37,235 nt of DNA. It comes from Defluviicoccus sp. GTDB taxonomy: Bacteria; Pseudomonadota; Alphaproteobacteria; MPNO01. The stretch is taken from contig JAPPIT010000018.1 in assembly GCA_028820505.1 (NCBI GenBank), forward strand, positions 1 through 37,235. Direction: 5' to 3'. Each line of letters starts with the position of its first letter. Position 1 is the first letter of the stretch. The position numbers and the translations under genes were made by a program. This document shows positions 1,455 through 16,848 of this stretch, piece after piece. The notes below the pieces were generated by a model that was not told the origin of the DNA, searched no databases, and saw only the letters and a list, made by a program, of their open reading frames with translations.

Positions 1455-2254
1455 GCCGCCCTTTCCGCCGGGCCCGGCATCGGCGCCGTCAGGCAGTCGT
1501 CCGGCAGCGGCTCGATGGGGGCGAAGTCGCGATGGGCGATCCATTCCGGCCGCTTGAAGCGCCGGATGTGGTTCTCGACATGGCACAGCGACAGATAGAC
1601 GATGGTCCGGCCCCACGGCGACAGGTTGGGCGAGGACGCGTGGACGATGTTGCCGTGGAACATCAGCACGCTGCCGGCCTCGCCCTTGGCCGAGAAGATG
1701 CCGCCCCGCTCGGCGAGTTCGGTGACGGTCGCCTTGTCGAGCGTCCACAGCGGATAGCTGGTCGTCTCCAGGTCGTGCCCCGCCTCGTAGACGCCGCCCC
1801 GGTGCGAGCCCGGGATGATCCAGAGCGGCCCGTTGAACTCGGTCACGTCGTCGACGAACAGCGCGATGTTCATCGCGCGCGCTTCCGGCATCAAATCGTC
1901 GCGCGACCAGGTGCCGTAGTCCTGGTGCCACTGCCAGACGTCGCCGTCGAAGGCGACCTTGGCGTTCACCTTGTACTGGTGCATGTAGACCGGCCCGTCG
2001 AGCAGCTGCATGACCGGCCCGATCAGCCGCGGATGGCGGCCGAGCCGGCGGAACGCCTCGTGGTAGCGATGCGCCGCGAAGGCGGTGCGCGGGGAGACGC
2101 CGTCCTTCTCGCGGACGACCTCCTCGCGGTCCATGGCGTAGACCTCGCCCGCCCCCTTCCTGAGGACCGCGGCCTCCTCGGCGGAGAACAGCCCGGGCAG
2201 CATGAGATAGCCGGTCTCGTGGAACCGGTCGATCCGGTCGCGGGTGAGCTTCAT
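1451..2254 (-). CDS. Phytanoyl-CoA dioxygenase (PhyH) family, EctD-like Fe(II)/2-oxoglutarate dioxygenase
   Basis: A 267-residue Fe(II)- and 2-oxoglutarate-dependent hydroxylase. The iron facial triad is visible as H110-x-D112 (in WQWHQDYGTW) and distal H205 (in NIVHASSPN). R216 (PWGRT) is the likely 2-oxoglutarate carboxylate ligand. The stretch from the HxD motif to the PGSH motif (148-151) and the late H-x-S-x-x-N-x-S-P-x-x-R pattern resemble ectoine hydroxylase and its close PhyH relatives. No ectoine biosynthesis genes are present, so hydroxylation of another small polar molecule is just as likely. It is the first gene of a two-gene unit; its TGA overlaps the GTG of the SAF-domain oxidoreductase. 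Hydroxylation followed by NAD(P)-dependent oxidation is a plausible sequence of steps, but that is inference. Confidence 0.88.
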   Translation of the reverse strand: MKLTRDRIDRFHETGYLMLPGLFSAEEAAVLRKGAGEVYAMDREEVVREKDGVSPRTAFAAHRYHEAFRRLGRHPRLIGPVMQLLDGPVYMHQYKVNAKVAFDGDVWQWHQDYGTWSRDDLMPEARAMNIALFVDDVTEFNGPLWIIPGSHRGGVYEAGHDLETTSYPLWTLDKATVTELAERGGIFSAKGEAGSVLMFHGNIVHASSPNLSPWGRTIVYLSLCHVENHIRRFKRPEWIAHRDFAPIEPLPDDCLTAPMPGPAERAA

Positions 2255-2416
2255 GGCCGTGCGCCTTGCCTGTGGGGACGCGATGGGAAAAGGCTAACCG
2301 GAGCCGGTGCGGCGATCAACGCTCGGGGCTGGGGAGACCCCTTCCCGTCATATCGGCAGGAGGCCGATCTCTCCGCCAGAACCTTTCCCCGACGTCGCCC
2401 GGCTTTCCCCGGATCG

Positions 2417-2460
2417 GTGTCCGGGACAAGCCTGGACCCCGGATCAAGTCCGGGGTGACA
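2417..2460. repeat. Type-D palindromic repeat (GLDPGS-type)
   Basis: An intergenic element with an internal hairpin ACCCCGGA-TCAAG-TCCGGGGT at 2436-2456. It belongs to the common alphaproteobacterial intergenic repeats whose spurious translation reads HPGLDPGS. This is the only copy in the window. It lies in the 403-base gene-free stretch 2255-2657, together with the type-A pair at 2518-2629. I see no gene in that stretch. Confidence 0.7.
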
Positions 2461-2517
2461 ACCGGGGGAAAGGACGGCGGGCCGCGCCCGCGTCTCCCCC
2501 GCCGCCGTCCCCCCCAC

Positions 2518-2629
2518 CGTCATGCCCGGACTTGTTCCGGGCATCCACGTCTTGCGGCATCGCGGTATAAGCGGGCGCGGGCGAGGCGGCGGAGGGACGT
2601 GGATGCCCGGAACAAGTCCGGGCATGACG
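2518..2629. repeat. Type-A paired palindromic repeat, complete copy
   Basis: Two perfectly complementary 33-base arms (2518-2550 and 2597-2629) flank a 46-base loop. Each arm is also a hairpin by itself (TGCCCGGA-acttgt-TCCGGGCA). The right arm plus 20 bases of loop (2577-2629) recurs exactly, in reverse orientation, at 37183-37235. Loop sequence near the left arm (GCGATGCCGCAAG on one strand) also recurs in the copy at 6515-6626. The unit that spreads or is conserved is therefore the whole element, not just the hairpin. It sits between the 3' end of the TPP enzyme gene and the start of the PhyH gene. Confidence 0.9.
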
Positions 2630-2657
2630 AAAAAAGGGGTGGCAGGAACCCCTCCCC

Positions 2658-4415
2658 TCAGTCCTCGCCCTGGAGGCGCTTGAGCCAGATCGAGACCAGC
2701 GCCGGTTTGCCGGCCCGCACCTGGGCCAGGCCGCGGGCGAGGGCGGCGTCGAGCTCGGCCGGGTCGCGGACGGTCTCGCCGTGGGCGCCGGCGGCCTCGG
2801 CCTCGCGGGCGAAGTCGATCGGCGGATCGAACCAGCCGCCCTTGAACCCGTCCTTCGCGGCGTAGCTCCCGGCGCCGTAATTGTTGACGATGCGCTCGGT
2901 GCCCGTCGTGTAGCTGCGGTTGGTATAGACGATCTGGAGGAACGGCGCGTCGTGGTGGGCGGCCGACCACAGCGCCGGGGCCGGCGTCCCGAACATGTAG
3001 AAGCCGTCGCCGCTGACCGCGATCACGTCGCGCTCGGGCGCGGCGAGCTTGGCGCCGAGCGCGGCCCCGGTGGCCCAGCCGCCGCTGGAACCCGGGTTGG
3101 CGAAATAGGAGCCGGGCGCGCTGCGGTCGAGATAGTCCCTGAGCCGGTTGGGCGGCAGGGTCTCGTCGAACACGATGCAGTCGTCGTCGAGCATCGCGCC
3201 GATGCGGTAGCCCGCCCAGTAGCGGTCGATGGGGACGGTCGAAGCGTGCGCCTTCGCGGCCTCCTCCGCCGCGCCGATCCACGCCCGCGATCCGGCGGCG
3301 AGGCGTTCCTTCCGCGCCGCGATCCGCTCCCGGTCGGCGTCGGTCAGCCGGTCCCGCGCGGCCTCGGCGATGGCACCGATCGTCGCGAGCGGGTCGGCGG
3401 CGAGGCGCAGATCGGCGGTGAACTCGAAGGTCGGGATCCGGCTCTCGATCGGATCGAGCCCGACCGAGACGACGAACGCGTCCGCCCCCGGCGAATTGCG
3501 GCCGGGCACCCAGGGGACGACCGCCTCGAGCGCCAGCACGACGTCGGCGTCCTTCAGGGTGTCCTGGGTCTGGAAGGCGGGGTGGCGGAAGGGGAAGCTC
3601 ATGTAGCTGCGCTGGACCGAGTCGACGACGGCGAGGCCGAGCGTCTCGCAGAGATCGACCAGCGCCGGCACCGTGGCCGGGTCGCGCCCCGAGGCGGAGA
3701 CCACGACGACCGGATGGGCGGCTTCGATCAGCCTGCGCGCGACCTCGTCCGCGTCCTGGGCGGACGGCGCGGCGGGGCGCGGGATGCCGAGCCGGTCGGC
3801 GCTCGGGAAGCTGGCGCCGTCGACCGGGAGCAGGGTGAGCTCCTTGGGGAAGCTCAGATAGACCGGGCCGCAGGGCTCGCTCCGCGTCACCTGCACCGCG
3901 CGGCTGGCGATGGTGCCGGGATTATCCTGCCAGGTCAGCCGGTGGTCCCACTTGACGTAGTTGCGGACGATCCCGTTCTGGTCGAAGGTCTCCTGCATCC
4001 AGAGATGCCCGCCCTCGTCGCGCCCGCCCTTGAGCGTCCCGGCGTAAGCTGTCGGCGGGAAGCCCGCGGTGATGACCACGGGGAGGCGGCTCCGCGCCGC
4101 GGTATGGACGGCGCCGCCGTAATGCATCGTGCCGCAGTCGACATGGGCCGCGGTCACCGCCGGCCGGCCGCTCACCGCGGCGAAGCCGAGCGCGGCGTTG
4201 AGGCTCGCATGCTCGTGCGGCACGGTGATCAGCCGGATCGGGTTGTTCTGCCCCCTCGCGCGCGCCTTGGCGGTGGCCTCCTGGAAGAAGCCGATCTCCG
4301 ATCCCGAGGTGAAGAACAAATGGTCCACCCCGCTCGCGGCGAACCCCGCGACCAGCGCGTCGCCCACGTCTTCCGCCGGCGCCTCGGTCCAGCCCGCCAT
4401 CCGTCCGTCGTCCAT
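2658..4415 (-). CDS. Thiamine-diphosphate-dependent enzyme, acetolactate synthase / benzoylformate decarboxylase-like
   Basis: A 585-residue TPP enzyme with the three usual domains. The N-terminal PYR domain carries the conserved glutamate E68 (VPHEHASLNAALGFA) that activates the cofactor. A middle domain (about 200-340) follows. The C-terminal PP domain has the GDG...N cofactor and Mg motif (VSGDGFYMFG ... YTNRSY). The substrate cannot be read from the sequence; an acetolactate synthase proper would normally lie next to ilvH, which is absent. The ATG at 4415 is preferred over an upstream ATG at 4451 because GGAGAGG lies seven bases ahead of it. It is divergent from the duplicated small protein at 4512, with 96 bases between the start codons, so the two may share a control region. 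It could be a decarboxylase or carboligase for a 2-oxo acid. Confidence 0.85.
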   Translation of the reverse strand: MDDGRMAGWTEAPAEDVGDALVAGFAASGVDHLFFTSGSEIGFFQEATAKARARGQNNPIRLITVPHEHASLNAALGFAAVSGRPAVTAAHVDCGTMHYGGAVHTAARSRLPVVITAGFPPTAYAGTLKGGRDEGGHLWMQETFDQNGIVRNYVKWDHRLTWQDNPGTIASRAVQVTRSEPCGPVYLSFPKELTLLPVDGASFPSADRLGIPRPAAPSAQDADEVARRLIEAAHPVVVVSASGRDPATVPALVDLCETLGLAVVDSVQRSYMSFPFRHPAFQTQDTLKDADVVLALEAVVPWVPGRNSPGADAFVVSVGLDPIESRIPTFEFTADLRLAADPLATIGAIAEAARDRLTDADRERIAARKERLAAGSRAWIGAAEEAAKAHASTVPIDRYWAGYRIGAMLDDDCIVFDETLPPNRLRDYLDRSAPGSYFANPGSSGGWATGAALGAKLAAPERDVIAVSGDGFYMFGTPAPALWSAAHHDAPFLQIVYTNRSYTTGTERIVNNYGAGSYAAKDGFKGGWFDPPIDFAREAEAAGAHGETVRDPAELDAALARGLAQVRAGKPALVSIWLKRLQGED

Positions 4416-5174: not shown

Positions 5175-5249
5175 CGTCATGGCCGGACTTGTTCCGGCCA
5201 TCCACGAACCCCGCGGAGGGGGATGCCCGGAACAAGTCCGGGCATGACG
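5175..5249. repeat. Type-A repeat pair with compensated arms
   Basis: The left unit (5175-5206) and the right unit (5221-5249) are separated by 14 bases. The left unit has the hairpin GGCCGGA...TCCGGCC and the right unit has GCCCGGA...TCCGGGC. Within the left unit both sides of the stem changed together, so the small hairpin is kept while pairing between the two units is weakened. It lies between the convergent 3' ends of the duplicated protein gene and the cupin gene, where it may also act in transcript ending; no T-run follows. Confidence 0.85.
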
Positions 5250-5790: not shown

Positions 5791-5830
5791 CTACCCGTCA
5801 CGGTCGGCGGAGGCCGACTGTGACGGGTAG
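5791..5830. repeat. Type-B-like long hairpin
   Basis: An inverted repeat with 18-base arms, one mismatch and a four-base loop (GGAG). The core CGGTCGGC...GCCGACTG and the outer GTCA/TGAC match the type-B repeat family. It lies in the 284-base gap between the DUF1857 gene and the cupin gene and could end transcription of the former. No T-run follows on the minus strand, so an intrinsic terminator is not well supported. Nothing else in 5687-5970 is recognisable. Confidence 0.7.
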
Positions 5831-6514: not shown

Positions 6515-6626
6515 CGTCATGCCCGGACTTGTTCCGGGCATCTACGTTGGTCCGCCGGTTCGCCAGGCCCCGCCTGTCGCGCGATGCCGCAAGGCGTGGA
6601 TGCCCGGAACAAGTCCGGGCATGACG
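6515..6626. repeat. Type-A paired palindromic repeat
   Basis: Left arm 6515-6547 and right arm 6595-6626, with a 47-base loop. The arms differ by one or two bases near their inner ends. The loop keeps GCGATGCCGCAAG next to the right arm, the same segment found on the opposite strand of the copy at 2518-2629, so the two copies are inverted with respect to each other. It lies between the divergent DUF1857 and CitE-like genes. Confidence 0.88.
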
Positions 6627-8255: not shown

Positions 8256-8293
8256 CCCTTCGATACGCCGCTTCGCGGCTACTCAGGGTGAGG
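8256..8293. repeat. Type-C repeat, single unit overlapping a start codon
   Basis: One unit of the type-C repeat, starting CCCTTCGATACG and ending CTCAGGGTGAGG, with an inner hairpin GCCGCTTCGCGGC. Related units are at 16404-16493 and 23152-23254. Its last bases contain the GTG used here as the start of the EamA gene, so the repeat forms the translation start region of that gene. Confidence 0.85.
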
Positions 8294-15494: not shown

Positions 15495-16109
15495 ATGACC
15501 AAGCGCGTACGCTCGAAGTACAAGATCAACCGCAGGCTCCGGGTCAATCTCTGGGGCCGGCCGAAGAGCCCGGTCAACAAGCGGGACTACCCGCCCGGCG
15601 AGCACGGCCAGCGCCGCCGCAAGGTGTCGGATTTCGGCACCCAGCTTCAGGCCAAGCAAAAGCTGCGCGGCTATTACGGCAACATCACGGAAAAGCAGTT
15701 CCGCCGGCTCTACCACGAAGCCGTCAGGCGGCGCGGCGACACGGTCGAGAACCTCGTGGGACTGCTGGAGCAGAGGCTCGACGCCGTCGTCTACCGGCTC
15801 AAGTTCGTGCCCACCGTCTTCGCCGCGCGCCAGTTCATCAGCCACGGCCACGTGTCGGTCAACGGGCGCCGGGTGACGATCCCGTCCTTCCGAGTCCGGG
15901 TCGGCGACGAGATCGAGGTGCGGGAGCGCTCGCGCAACCTGGGGCTGGTGCTGGAGGCCATGGACTCGCCCGAGCGCGACGTGCCGGATTATTTCGAGGT
16001 CGACTACAACAAGATGGTCGGCCGGATGCTGCGGATCCCCCAGCTGGCGGAGATCCCCTACCCGGTCCAGATGGAACCCAACCTGGTCATCGAGTACTAC
16101 TCGCGGTAG
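15495..16109 (+). CDS. rpsD: 30S ribosomal protein S4
   Basis: A 204-residue S4, a primary 16S rRNA-binding protein that nucleates assembly of the 30S body. The N-terminal domain shows the family run [20 protein letters not shown] and [17 protein letters not shown]. The S4 RNA-binding domain (about 94-155) contains [20 protein letters not shown] and [11 protein letters not shown]. The N-terminus has no zinc cysteines, as in the cysteine-free form. The ATG at 15495 has AAGGA seven bases upstream. The gene is not next to rpsM-rpsK-rpoA, which is usual in alphaproteobacteria. The stop codon is followed at once by the direct repeat that bounds the element at 16110-16413. Confidence 0.98.
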
Positions 16110-16413
16110 CCCTTCGATAGGGCCTTATATCGACAACTTGACAGGCGCGAGGCCGACAGGCGTTCCGGGAAGCGCCGGGGCGTATCCGGTTCGTGGCGCA
16201 CCGTTCCTCCTCCGTCATGGTCGGCGAAGGCCGACCATCCACGAGTTTTTGCGGCGCTGGAAACGAAAAACAAATCGTGGATGGTCGGCCTTCGCCGACC
16301 ATGACGGGGGGAGGCTGGCGGTTCCCGCGCCCGCCGCAACAGGGCGGCGTTACTGGCGCCGACCCGCGTCCGGCGATCGGCTGTCAAGTAGTCGATATAA
16401 GCCCCCTTCGATA
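16110..16413. mobile_element. Possible MITE-like element with terminal inverted repeats and 10-bp flanking direct repeat
   Basis: The 10-mer CCCTTCGATA occurs directly before (16110-16119) and directly after (16404-16413) a 284-base segment. That segment is bounded by 23-base inverted repeats at 16122-16144 and 16381-16403, matching at 21 of 23 positions (shared core TTATATCGAC and ACTTGACAG). No transposase is inside; the interior carries the type-B hairpin pair. The layout fits a non-autonomous element that inserted into a type-C repeat and duplicated its target, since the flanking 10-mer is the first part of a type-C unit. It could instead be a chance composite of decayed repeats. Confidence 0.45.
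16212..16307. repeat. Type-B paired palindromic repeat, complete copy
   Basis: Perfect 33-base inverted arms at 16212-16244 and 16275-16307, with a 30-base A-rich loop. Each arm is itself a hairpin (GGTCGGC-GAAG-GCCGACC). The right arm matches bases 1-26 of the window. It lies inside the 391-base gene-free stretch between rpsD and grxD, all of which is made of repeats. Confidence 0.9.
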
Positions 16414-16493
16414 CGCGGCTTCGCCGCTACTCAGGGTGAGGCAATCCTCGAAGTTTCCTCATCCCGAGCAGGCGCGAAGCGCCGTATCGAGGG
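16404..16493. repeat. Type-C repeat pair
   Basis: The left unit (16404-16441) and the inverted right unit (16457-16493) are separated by 15 bases. Inner hairpins differ between units (GCGGCTTCGCCGC on the left, GGCGCGAAGCGCC on the right) but each is self-complementary. It lies directly downstream of grxD, eight bases from its stop codon, and may serve as a transcript end. Confidence 0.88.
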
Positions 16494-16500
16494 ACGCGCC

Positions 16501-16848
16501 CTATTCGGGATTGGCGAGCTGGATGTCGATCCCGCGGGTGGAGAACAGCTCCATCAGCTCGCCGGTCTCGTACATCTCGCGCACGATGTCGCAGCCGCCG
16601 ACGAACTCGCCCTTGACGTAGAGCTGGGGAATGGTGGGCCAGCTCGAGAAATGCTTGATCCCCTCGCGCAGCTCGGGGTCCTGCAGGACGTCGATGCCGC
16701 GGAACGGCACGCCGAGATTGCTGAGCGCCTGAACCACCATGGAGGAGAACCCGCATTGCGGGAAGACGGGCGTCCCCTTCATGAACAGCACGACGTCGGT
16801 TTCCCCGATGTCCTCGCGGATTCGTTCGAACACGGCGGGTTCGCTCAT
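16501..16848 (-). CDS. grxD: Monothiol glutaredoxin Grx4 family
   Basis: A 115-residue CGFS glutaredoxin. The active-site C32-G-F-S35 follows the VVLFMKGTP strand. WPTIPQLYVKGEFVGGCDI gives the cis-proline and glutathione-binding segment. Such proteins carry a [2Fe-2S] cluster bridged by glutathione, and pass clusters to targets or act with BolA proteins in iron sensing. AGGAG precedes the ATG at 16848. It is the last gene of the run purC-purS-purQ-rhomboid-purL-bolA-grxD, 26 bases after bolA. Adjacency to bolA is functionally meaningful, because the two proteins form heterocomplexes in many organisms. Confidence 0.95.
   Translation of the reverse strand: MSEPAVFERIREDIGETDVVLFMKGTPVFPQCGFSSMVVQALSNLGVPFRGIDVLQDPELREGIKHFSSWPTIPQLYVKGEFVGGCDIVREMYETGELMELFSTRGIDIQLANPE

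Follow-up and report, generated by a model that had tools for sequence, protein, structure and literature searches.

The region behind rpsD in the window (the whole analyzed stretch of 37,235 nucleotides from Defluviicoccus sp.) harbors a short mobile element, and we consider it likely, with a probability of roughly 0.8, that this is an IS1595-type MITE that was moved in trans, inserted at the genus-preferred octamer CTTCGATA of a type-C doublet and carries a CGTC-REP dimer. According to this model, a transposase supplied in trans would recognize the GGGGCTTATA... ends of the MITE. Its insertion behind rpsD would have duplicated 8 bp, namely CTTCGATA, the octamer with which a REP-like type-C inverted doublet ends, and the transposition system of the genus would prefer this octamer. 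The cause of the preference is presumably the octamer itself rather than the structure of the C repeat or a bound factor. The genomes compared were that of the window itself (G000; 5.49 Mb, 228 contigs) and four congeneric genomes (G001 to G004), all drafts.

Inspection of the borders revealed terminal inverted repeats (TIRs) of 25 bp that match at 23 of 25 bases, flanked on both sides by an exact 8-bp duplication of CTTCGATA (Table 1). With 286 bp, the element is too short for a transposase gene. The preliminary description had proposed a MITE-like element with inverted repeats, an internal hairpin pair and a flanking direct repeat, all of which are present in the sequence. Its dimensions shift from 284 to 286 bp (16120-16405) and those of the TIRs from 23 bp (21 matching) to 25 bp. 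The direct 10-mer reported there is real as a repeat; the true duplication is the octamer, and the two remaining bases match by chance: the extra CC belongs to the target sequence on the left side and to the TIR end on the right. The motif CCCTTCGATA occurs four times in the window, compared to a mean of 0.04 in 100 shuffles, and the internal inverted repeat of the element spans 42 nt with 93% complementarity. RNA folding of 16110-16500 was much stronger than that of shuffled sequences (z = -13.2), which is expected from the inverted repeats and is no demonstration of function. Rfam models at gathering thresholds gave no match within the window.

Table 1. Features of the insertion locus behind rpsD (window positions)
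Feature	Position	Strand	Basis
rpsD (ribosomal protein S4)	15495..16109	+	sequence read directly; name by recognition
Left remnant of host type-C repeat (CC + CTTCGATA)	16110..16119	+	sequence, C-copy search
Target site duplication, left copy CTTCGATA	16112..16119	.	sequence
Non-autonomous element (MITE), probably IS1595-type, 286 bp	16120..16405	.	copies, ends, duplication
Left terminal inverted repeat, 25 bp	16120..16144	+	repeat search, end comparison
First hairpin of type-B dimer: CGTC tag + ATGGTCGGC/GCCGACCAT stem + CCACG tail	16213..16243	+	
Second hairpin of type-B dimer, inverted	16276..16306	-	
Right terminal inverted repeat, 25 bp	16381..16405	-	repeat search, end comparison
Target site duplication, right copy CTTCGATA	16406..16413	.	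sequence
Rest of host type-C inverted doublet	16406..16497	+	search with joined C copy
Convergent neighbor gene, monothiol glutaredoxin-like	16501..16848	-	ORF; name by recognition

The element lies between two genes which we take, on recognition of their products, to be rpsD, so named in the preliminary description as well, and a convergent gene for a monothiol glutaredoxin-like protein. The stop codon of rpsD ends 2 bp before the left target duplication. The last 110 bases of this gene match three relatives at 92 to 94%, and the glutaredoxin-like gene shows 90 to 95% DNA identity to its counterparts in G001, G003 and G004.

A DNA search revealed a second copy in G000 at a different place (C27:9251-9548), which is 98.95% identical over 286 bp, along with partial or diverged copies on C18, C213, C185 and C220. 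Furthermore, a TIR pattern allowing at most three mismatches matched 70 ends across the five genomes of the genus (40 in G000, 17 in G001, none in G002, seven in G003 and six in G004) versus none with the reversed control pattern, and all 70, checked against the pattern-search list, were examined. The further copies with the same ends that the preliminary description had called for thus exist in G000, and elements with related ends are present in three of the four other genomes, so the outcome named there as a refutation did not occur. Partner ends were accepted at no more than 9 mismatches in 25 bases; the score by which they were chosen included the duplication, a procedure slightly favoring matching octamers. 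This yielded 22 two-ended elements, of which 15 match at 7 or more of the 8 duplicated bases; the other seven (L004, L046, L119, L120, L304, L306 and L316) fall below 7/8 and were left out of the 15. Half of the ends (35/70) had no partner within 650 bp. Beyond the genus, the pattern with one mismatch gave three hits among 385 genomes drawn from the class, namely in the genome of the window and in two members of one other family, and no exact match in viral contigs.

Since the ends and the 8-bp duplication agree with this family, we infer IS1595-type transposition in trans, with an IS1595 transposase as the putative mover. The IS1595 transposase domain PF12762, the sole transposase family searched for in the genomes, was matched in all 11 genomes searched, with a single match in G000. 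Sixteen of the 22 matches in the genus were examined with wide flanks, and seven of these 16 copies show exact 8-bp duplications, the length typical of IS1595 derivatives, and GGGGATTATA-like ends. Two of the seven intact copies are inserted in CTTCGATA, L252 (G004, 3175 bp) in a full C doublet and L245 (G002, 2186 bp) in half a C doublet, both with ends that differ from those of the MITE; the other five are at other octamers. Both PF12762 and NF033547 match the transposases encoded by L245, L246 and L252. In the other family, three IS1595 copies have exact duplications, none of them at the exact octamer (L214, CTTCGAAA; L224, AACAGATA; L232, GGAGGTTA).

An IS with ends matching the element, as envisaged in the preliminary description, did not emerge from the PF12762 search of the genus: the nearest IS ends, on G002:C119 (L246 and L219), deviate from those of the MITE at 6 and 5 of 25 bases. 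They share the start GGGG-N-TTATA with the MITE, and the two octamers flanking this IS do not match each other. As a control, the same 30 loci were compared with ten shuffled versions of the MITE consensus, for which the minima were 8 to 10 mismatches, and with the reversed consensus, for which the minimum was 9. The single PF12762 match in G000 has, as its best candidate ends, sequences that show no duplication and disagree with the MITE in 13 of 25 positions. Three observations on these copies stand apart. At the locus L301 (G003:C179:1950-2550), orthologous to the L245 site (G002:C14), a MITE end lies beside an octamer one base off, where G002 has a full IS1595 element in CTTCGATA. L247 and L249 are two IS1595 copies with different ends and a common target octamer, AAAAGAAG, which in L247 is followed by a terminator-like hairpin. 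The 3175-bp element L252 contains a 390-residue open frame at 2030-3199 with no Pfam match at an E value of 0.001.

ISL3 and IS256 are DDE families that also generate 8-bp duplications. The mover might therefore belong to one of these or to a similar family, and the octamer preference would then be a property of that transposase. Such a mover would fit the fact that no exact autonomous partner was found in genomes searched with PF12762 alone. We nevertheless regard it as unlikely, since the IS1595 copies of the genus have GGGG-A/C-TTATA ends, 8-bp duplications and, in two of seven cases, the same target octamer, and since the ends of L246 beat all ten shuffles.

Fifteen of the 70 TIR ends directly abut CTTCGATA/TATCGAAG (the octamer or its complement) and eight more do so with one mismatch, compared to about 0.002 exact cases and about 0.05 at 7/8 or better expected by chance, if equal base frequencies are assumed and bearing in mind that an element's two ends are mutually dependent. 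Among the 15 two-ended elements whose duplication reaches 7/8, nine are inserted at the octamer: L001, L002 and L010 in G000, L051 and L116 in G001, L145, L149 and L165 in G003 and L074 in G004. The count includes L149, at the variant octamer CTTCGCTA, and excludes L312, which has GTATCGAA beside its end and is possibly a tenth case shifted by one base. The remaining six (L041, L048, L169, L171, L310 and L317) are at other octamers. With the two IS1595 copies, which have different ends, the octamer was entered at separate loci that together cover all five genomes.

The octamer forms the end of the REP-like type-C repeat, which is about 95 bp long. Six of the nine elements at the octamer lie in a type-C doublet and L165 in a variant composite of C-type units; L145 and L149 have kept only a short C-like remnant. 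Insertion at a fixed point, with joined flanks that rebuild the repeat, as in REP-targeting elements, was thus found for nine of the 15. L001 and L002 are oriented opposite to their C repeats. A search with the C copy joined from the window's flanks gave at least 44 matches in G000, with 40 of 115 candidates scored; three of these matches repeat places already counted in the opposite orientation. The motif CCTTCGATACG occurs 84, 77, 35, 56 and 142 times in G000, G001, G002, G003 and G004, respectively, versus 0, 0, 0, 1 and 0 for its reversed control. In the window itself, uninterrupted C copies are found at 8256 (half) and 23152 (doublet). Since many relatives in the sister genomes are found at the same spot, transposons of this kind seem to use the type-C repeat as a landing site.

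We also considered that the target might be the foot of any hairpin. This was rejected as a general rule, as the fold energies of 36 bases on each side of 20 insertion sites were within the range of 3000 random positions (p of about 0.1 or more) with the single exception of L248 (p of about 0.004); in these GC-rich genomes the test is a weak one. Separately, MITE ends at L150 (G001:C116) and L159 (G004:C68) adjoin the octamer CCTCGACC after GCGTC, resembling the opposite end of the C doublet, and their identical 20-base flanks suggest orthologous loci. Clustering at C repeats could, alternatively, reflect survival, with insertions occurring anywhere and persisting in harmless intergenic repeats; the C repeats in the cases read indeed lie between genes, e.g., directly after rpsD. 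However, survival does not account for the use of one octamer within a repeat of about 95 bp in nine of 15 two-ended elements, and we hold this explanation to be quite improbable.

Orthologues were sought in the genus via flank pieces of nine insertion sites, three of which were aligned and others read by eye. For L116 (versus G004:C171), L074 (versus G001:C166) and L002 (versus G004:C42), the joined flanks minus one octamer align gap-free at the octamer through an uninterrupted C doublet, with small gaps elsewhere in the three alignments. The L010 site corresponds, as judged by eye, to an uninterrupted doublet with the octamer CTTCGGTA in G004:C252. Thus, the empty-site form suggested in the preliminary description was obtained for sister copies; for the window copy, none was found in the three relatives in which the rpsD-glutaredoxin interval was located (G001, G003 and G004). 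There, other sequence occupies the interval, including a short C-like fragment in the case of G003. The presence of the C repeat itself varies, since some orthologous loci have none (for example L288, L296, L297 and L298); the orthologue of L294 has other repeats, and that of the L252 site, G001:C154, is occupied by about 3.4 kb of different sequence that lacks IS1595 ends. Together with the dispersed copies and the exact 8-bp duplication, the empty sister sites bear out both the MITE-like nature of the element and its landing in a type-C repeat, as initially proposed. That no transposon is involved and the locus is instead a static mosaic, in which recombination or slippage shuffled palindromic repeats, is extremely improbable: subfamilies that differ in their REP hairpins, collapsed hairpins in L051, L074 and L010, the differing ends of L004 and the seven of 22 two-ended elements with duplications below 7/8 would suit it, but it is at odds with the exact 8-bp duplications and the 98.95% copy at an unrelated place and is already contradicted by the precise, aligned orthologous empty sites.

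The cargo of the IS1595-type MITE, the type-B dimer, agrees with the description of CGTC-REPs in the available part of PMC3733652, which gives a CGTC tag, a stem of 8 to 9 bp beginning with AT, a loop of 4 to 5, a short CCA tail and inverted dimers: it has the CGTC tag, a stem starting with AT, a tail fitting CCA and the inverted arrangement. With its 9-bp stem and loop of 4, it fits none of the four families given there exactly. A whole CGTC-REP hairpin or dimer is present in 13 of the 15 MITEs with duplications of at least 7/8 and a remnant in the other two. For comparison of the cargo, we used 15 two-ended elements (13 of that set plus L046 and L120), the arms of which align over parts of their length. 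In oriented elements, the hairpin starts at about 48 to 50 in L116, L120, L169, L046, L048 and L171, at 94 to 96 in L001, L002 and L051, at 102 to 103 in L145, L149 and L165 and at about 215 in the 542-bp L041; L010 and L074 have hairpin remnants, and L310 and L317 carry dimers. Because the dimer takes different positions in different MITE subfamilies, it was probably acquired by the MITE; these differing positions point either to repeated entry of dimers into the backbone or to the existence of old subfamilies.

Nevertheless, the type-B dimer mostly occurs on its own, outside the MITE. In G000, the best alignment of 33 of 40 scored type-B places (261 candidates) stays outside the element arms, although for C217 and C118, both among the 33, the opposite alignment does extend into them; around 14 of 14 arm-free loci, a search tolerating 8 mismatches detected no TIR within about 300 bp. 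The window additionally contains single B hairpins at 5800 and 10098 and inverted pairs of a related CGTC-type D motif at 2519-2616, 5176-5236 and 6516-6613. In view of these solitary type-B places, the earlier idea that the element shows how one repeat family moves another is weakly supported. It is rather doubtful that IS1595-type MITEs act as vehicles for CGTC-REPs, placing them preferentially at the landing octamer of a second palindromic repeat.

The same 25-bp ends were also observed around TnpB reading frames in genus g86, which belongs to another family of the class (L080 1688-3060, L082 5883-6876, L172, L195, L203 and others). Family searches confirmed two whole TnpB frames, with PF07282 in both and NF040570 in one; further inner frames are presumably TnpB as well, judging by recognition. 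Several of the TnpB-carrying elements have exact or near 8-bp duplications (GAAACATT, AAACATTT), and the single ends L198 and L207 have no recognized gene inside. We rejected these elements as carriers of the missing transposase, as the recognized inner frames are TnpB or fragments. Since TnpB-only elements lack TIRs and target site duplications according to the accessible text of PMC3627910, TnpB riding in a bacterial TIR element may merit study.

In sum, the locus provides a concrete case of three nested repeat families, with a CGTC-REP dimer in a MITE in a type-C repeat, the latter of which would be a natural, harmless landing site. A search for the C-repeat letters in open-licence literature returned papers unrelated by title. 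IS1016 is an IS1595-type element as well. Its association with REPs is weak (2/17) in the portion of PMC1525189 at hand, and the open-licence literature, as far as its text was accessible, yielded no report of IS1595 elements or their MITEs inserting into REPs. Likewise, the C repeat is not among the Bradyrhizobium REPs in the available part of PMC5082802. As far as PMC3733652 could be consulted, CGTC-REPs have no dedicated transposase; the few associations with transposase genes given there are fortuitous. The type-B (and D) hairpins share with them the CGTC tag, the AT stem start, the CCA tail, inverted dimers and an alphaproteobacterial host; in contrast, the type-B hairpins described here lie inside a TIR element with a target duplication.

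The closest counterpart by description, rather than by sequence, is the IS1595-family ISHwa6 MITE of Haloquadratum walsbyi, listed in the accessible part of PMC3852290 with 165 bp, seven copies, inverted repeats of 25 and direct repeats of 8. Both elements are non-autonomous, with 25-bp inverted repeats, 8-bp direct repeats and an assignment to IS1595, whereas the element studied here has a preferred target octamer within a palindromic repeat and carries a CGTC-REP dimer, and the host of ISHwa6 is archaeal. As for REP-targeting IS, the portion of PMC1525189 at hand names ISPsy8 (IS3), ISPa11, ISPpu9, ISPpu10 and ISRm19 (IS110) and ISRm22 (IS4). Like these, the elements of the window's type use one fixed point of an interspersed palindromic repeat, and their joined flanks rebuild the repeat. 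The known IS, however, belong to other transposase families, their stated duplications range from 0 to 6 bp, and in that portion of the text every copy (100%) is in a REP, whereas those described here are apparently IS1595-type, duplicate 8 bp, include both autonomous and non-autonomous members and lie in the repeat in some but not all cases. Site-specific targeting of REPs, as described for IS110, IS3 and IS4, would thus also be a property of IS1595-type elements and their MITEs.
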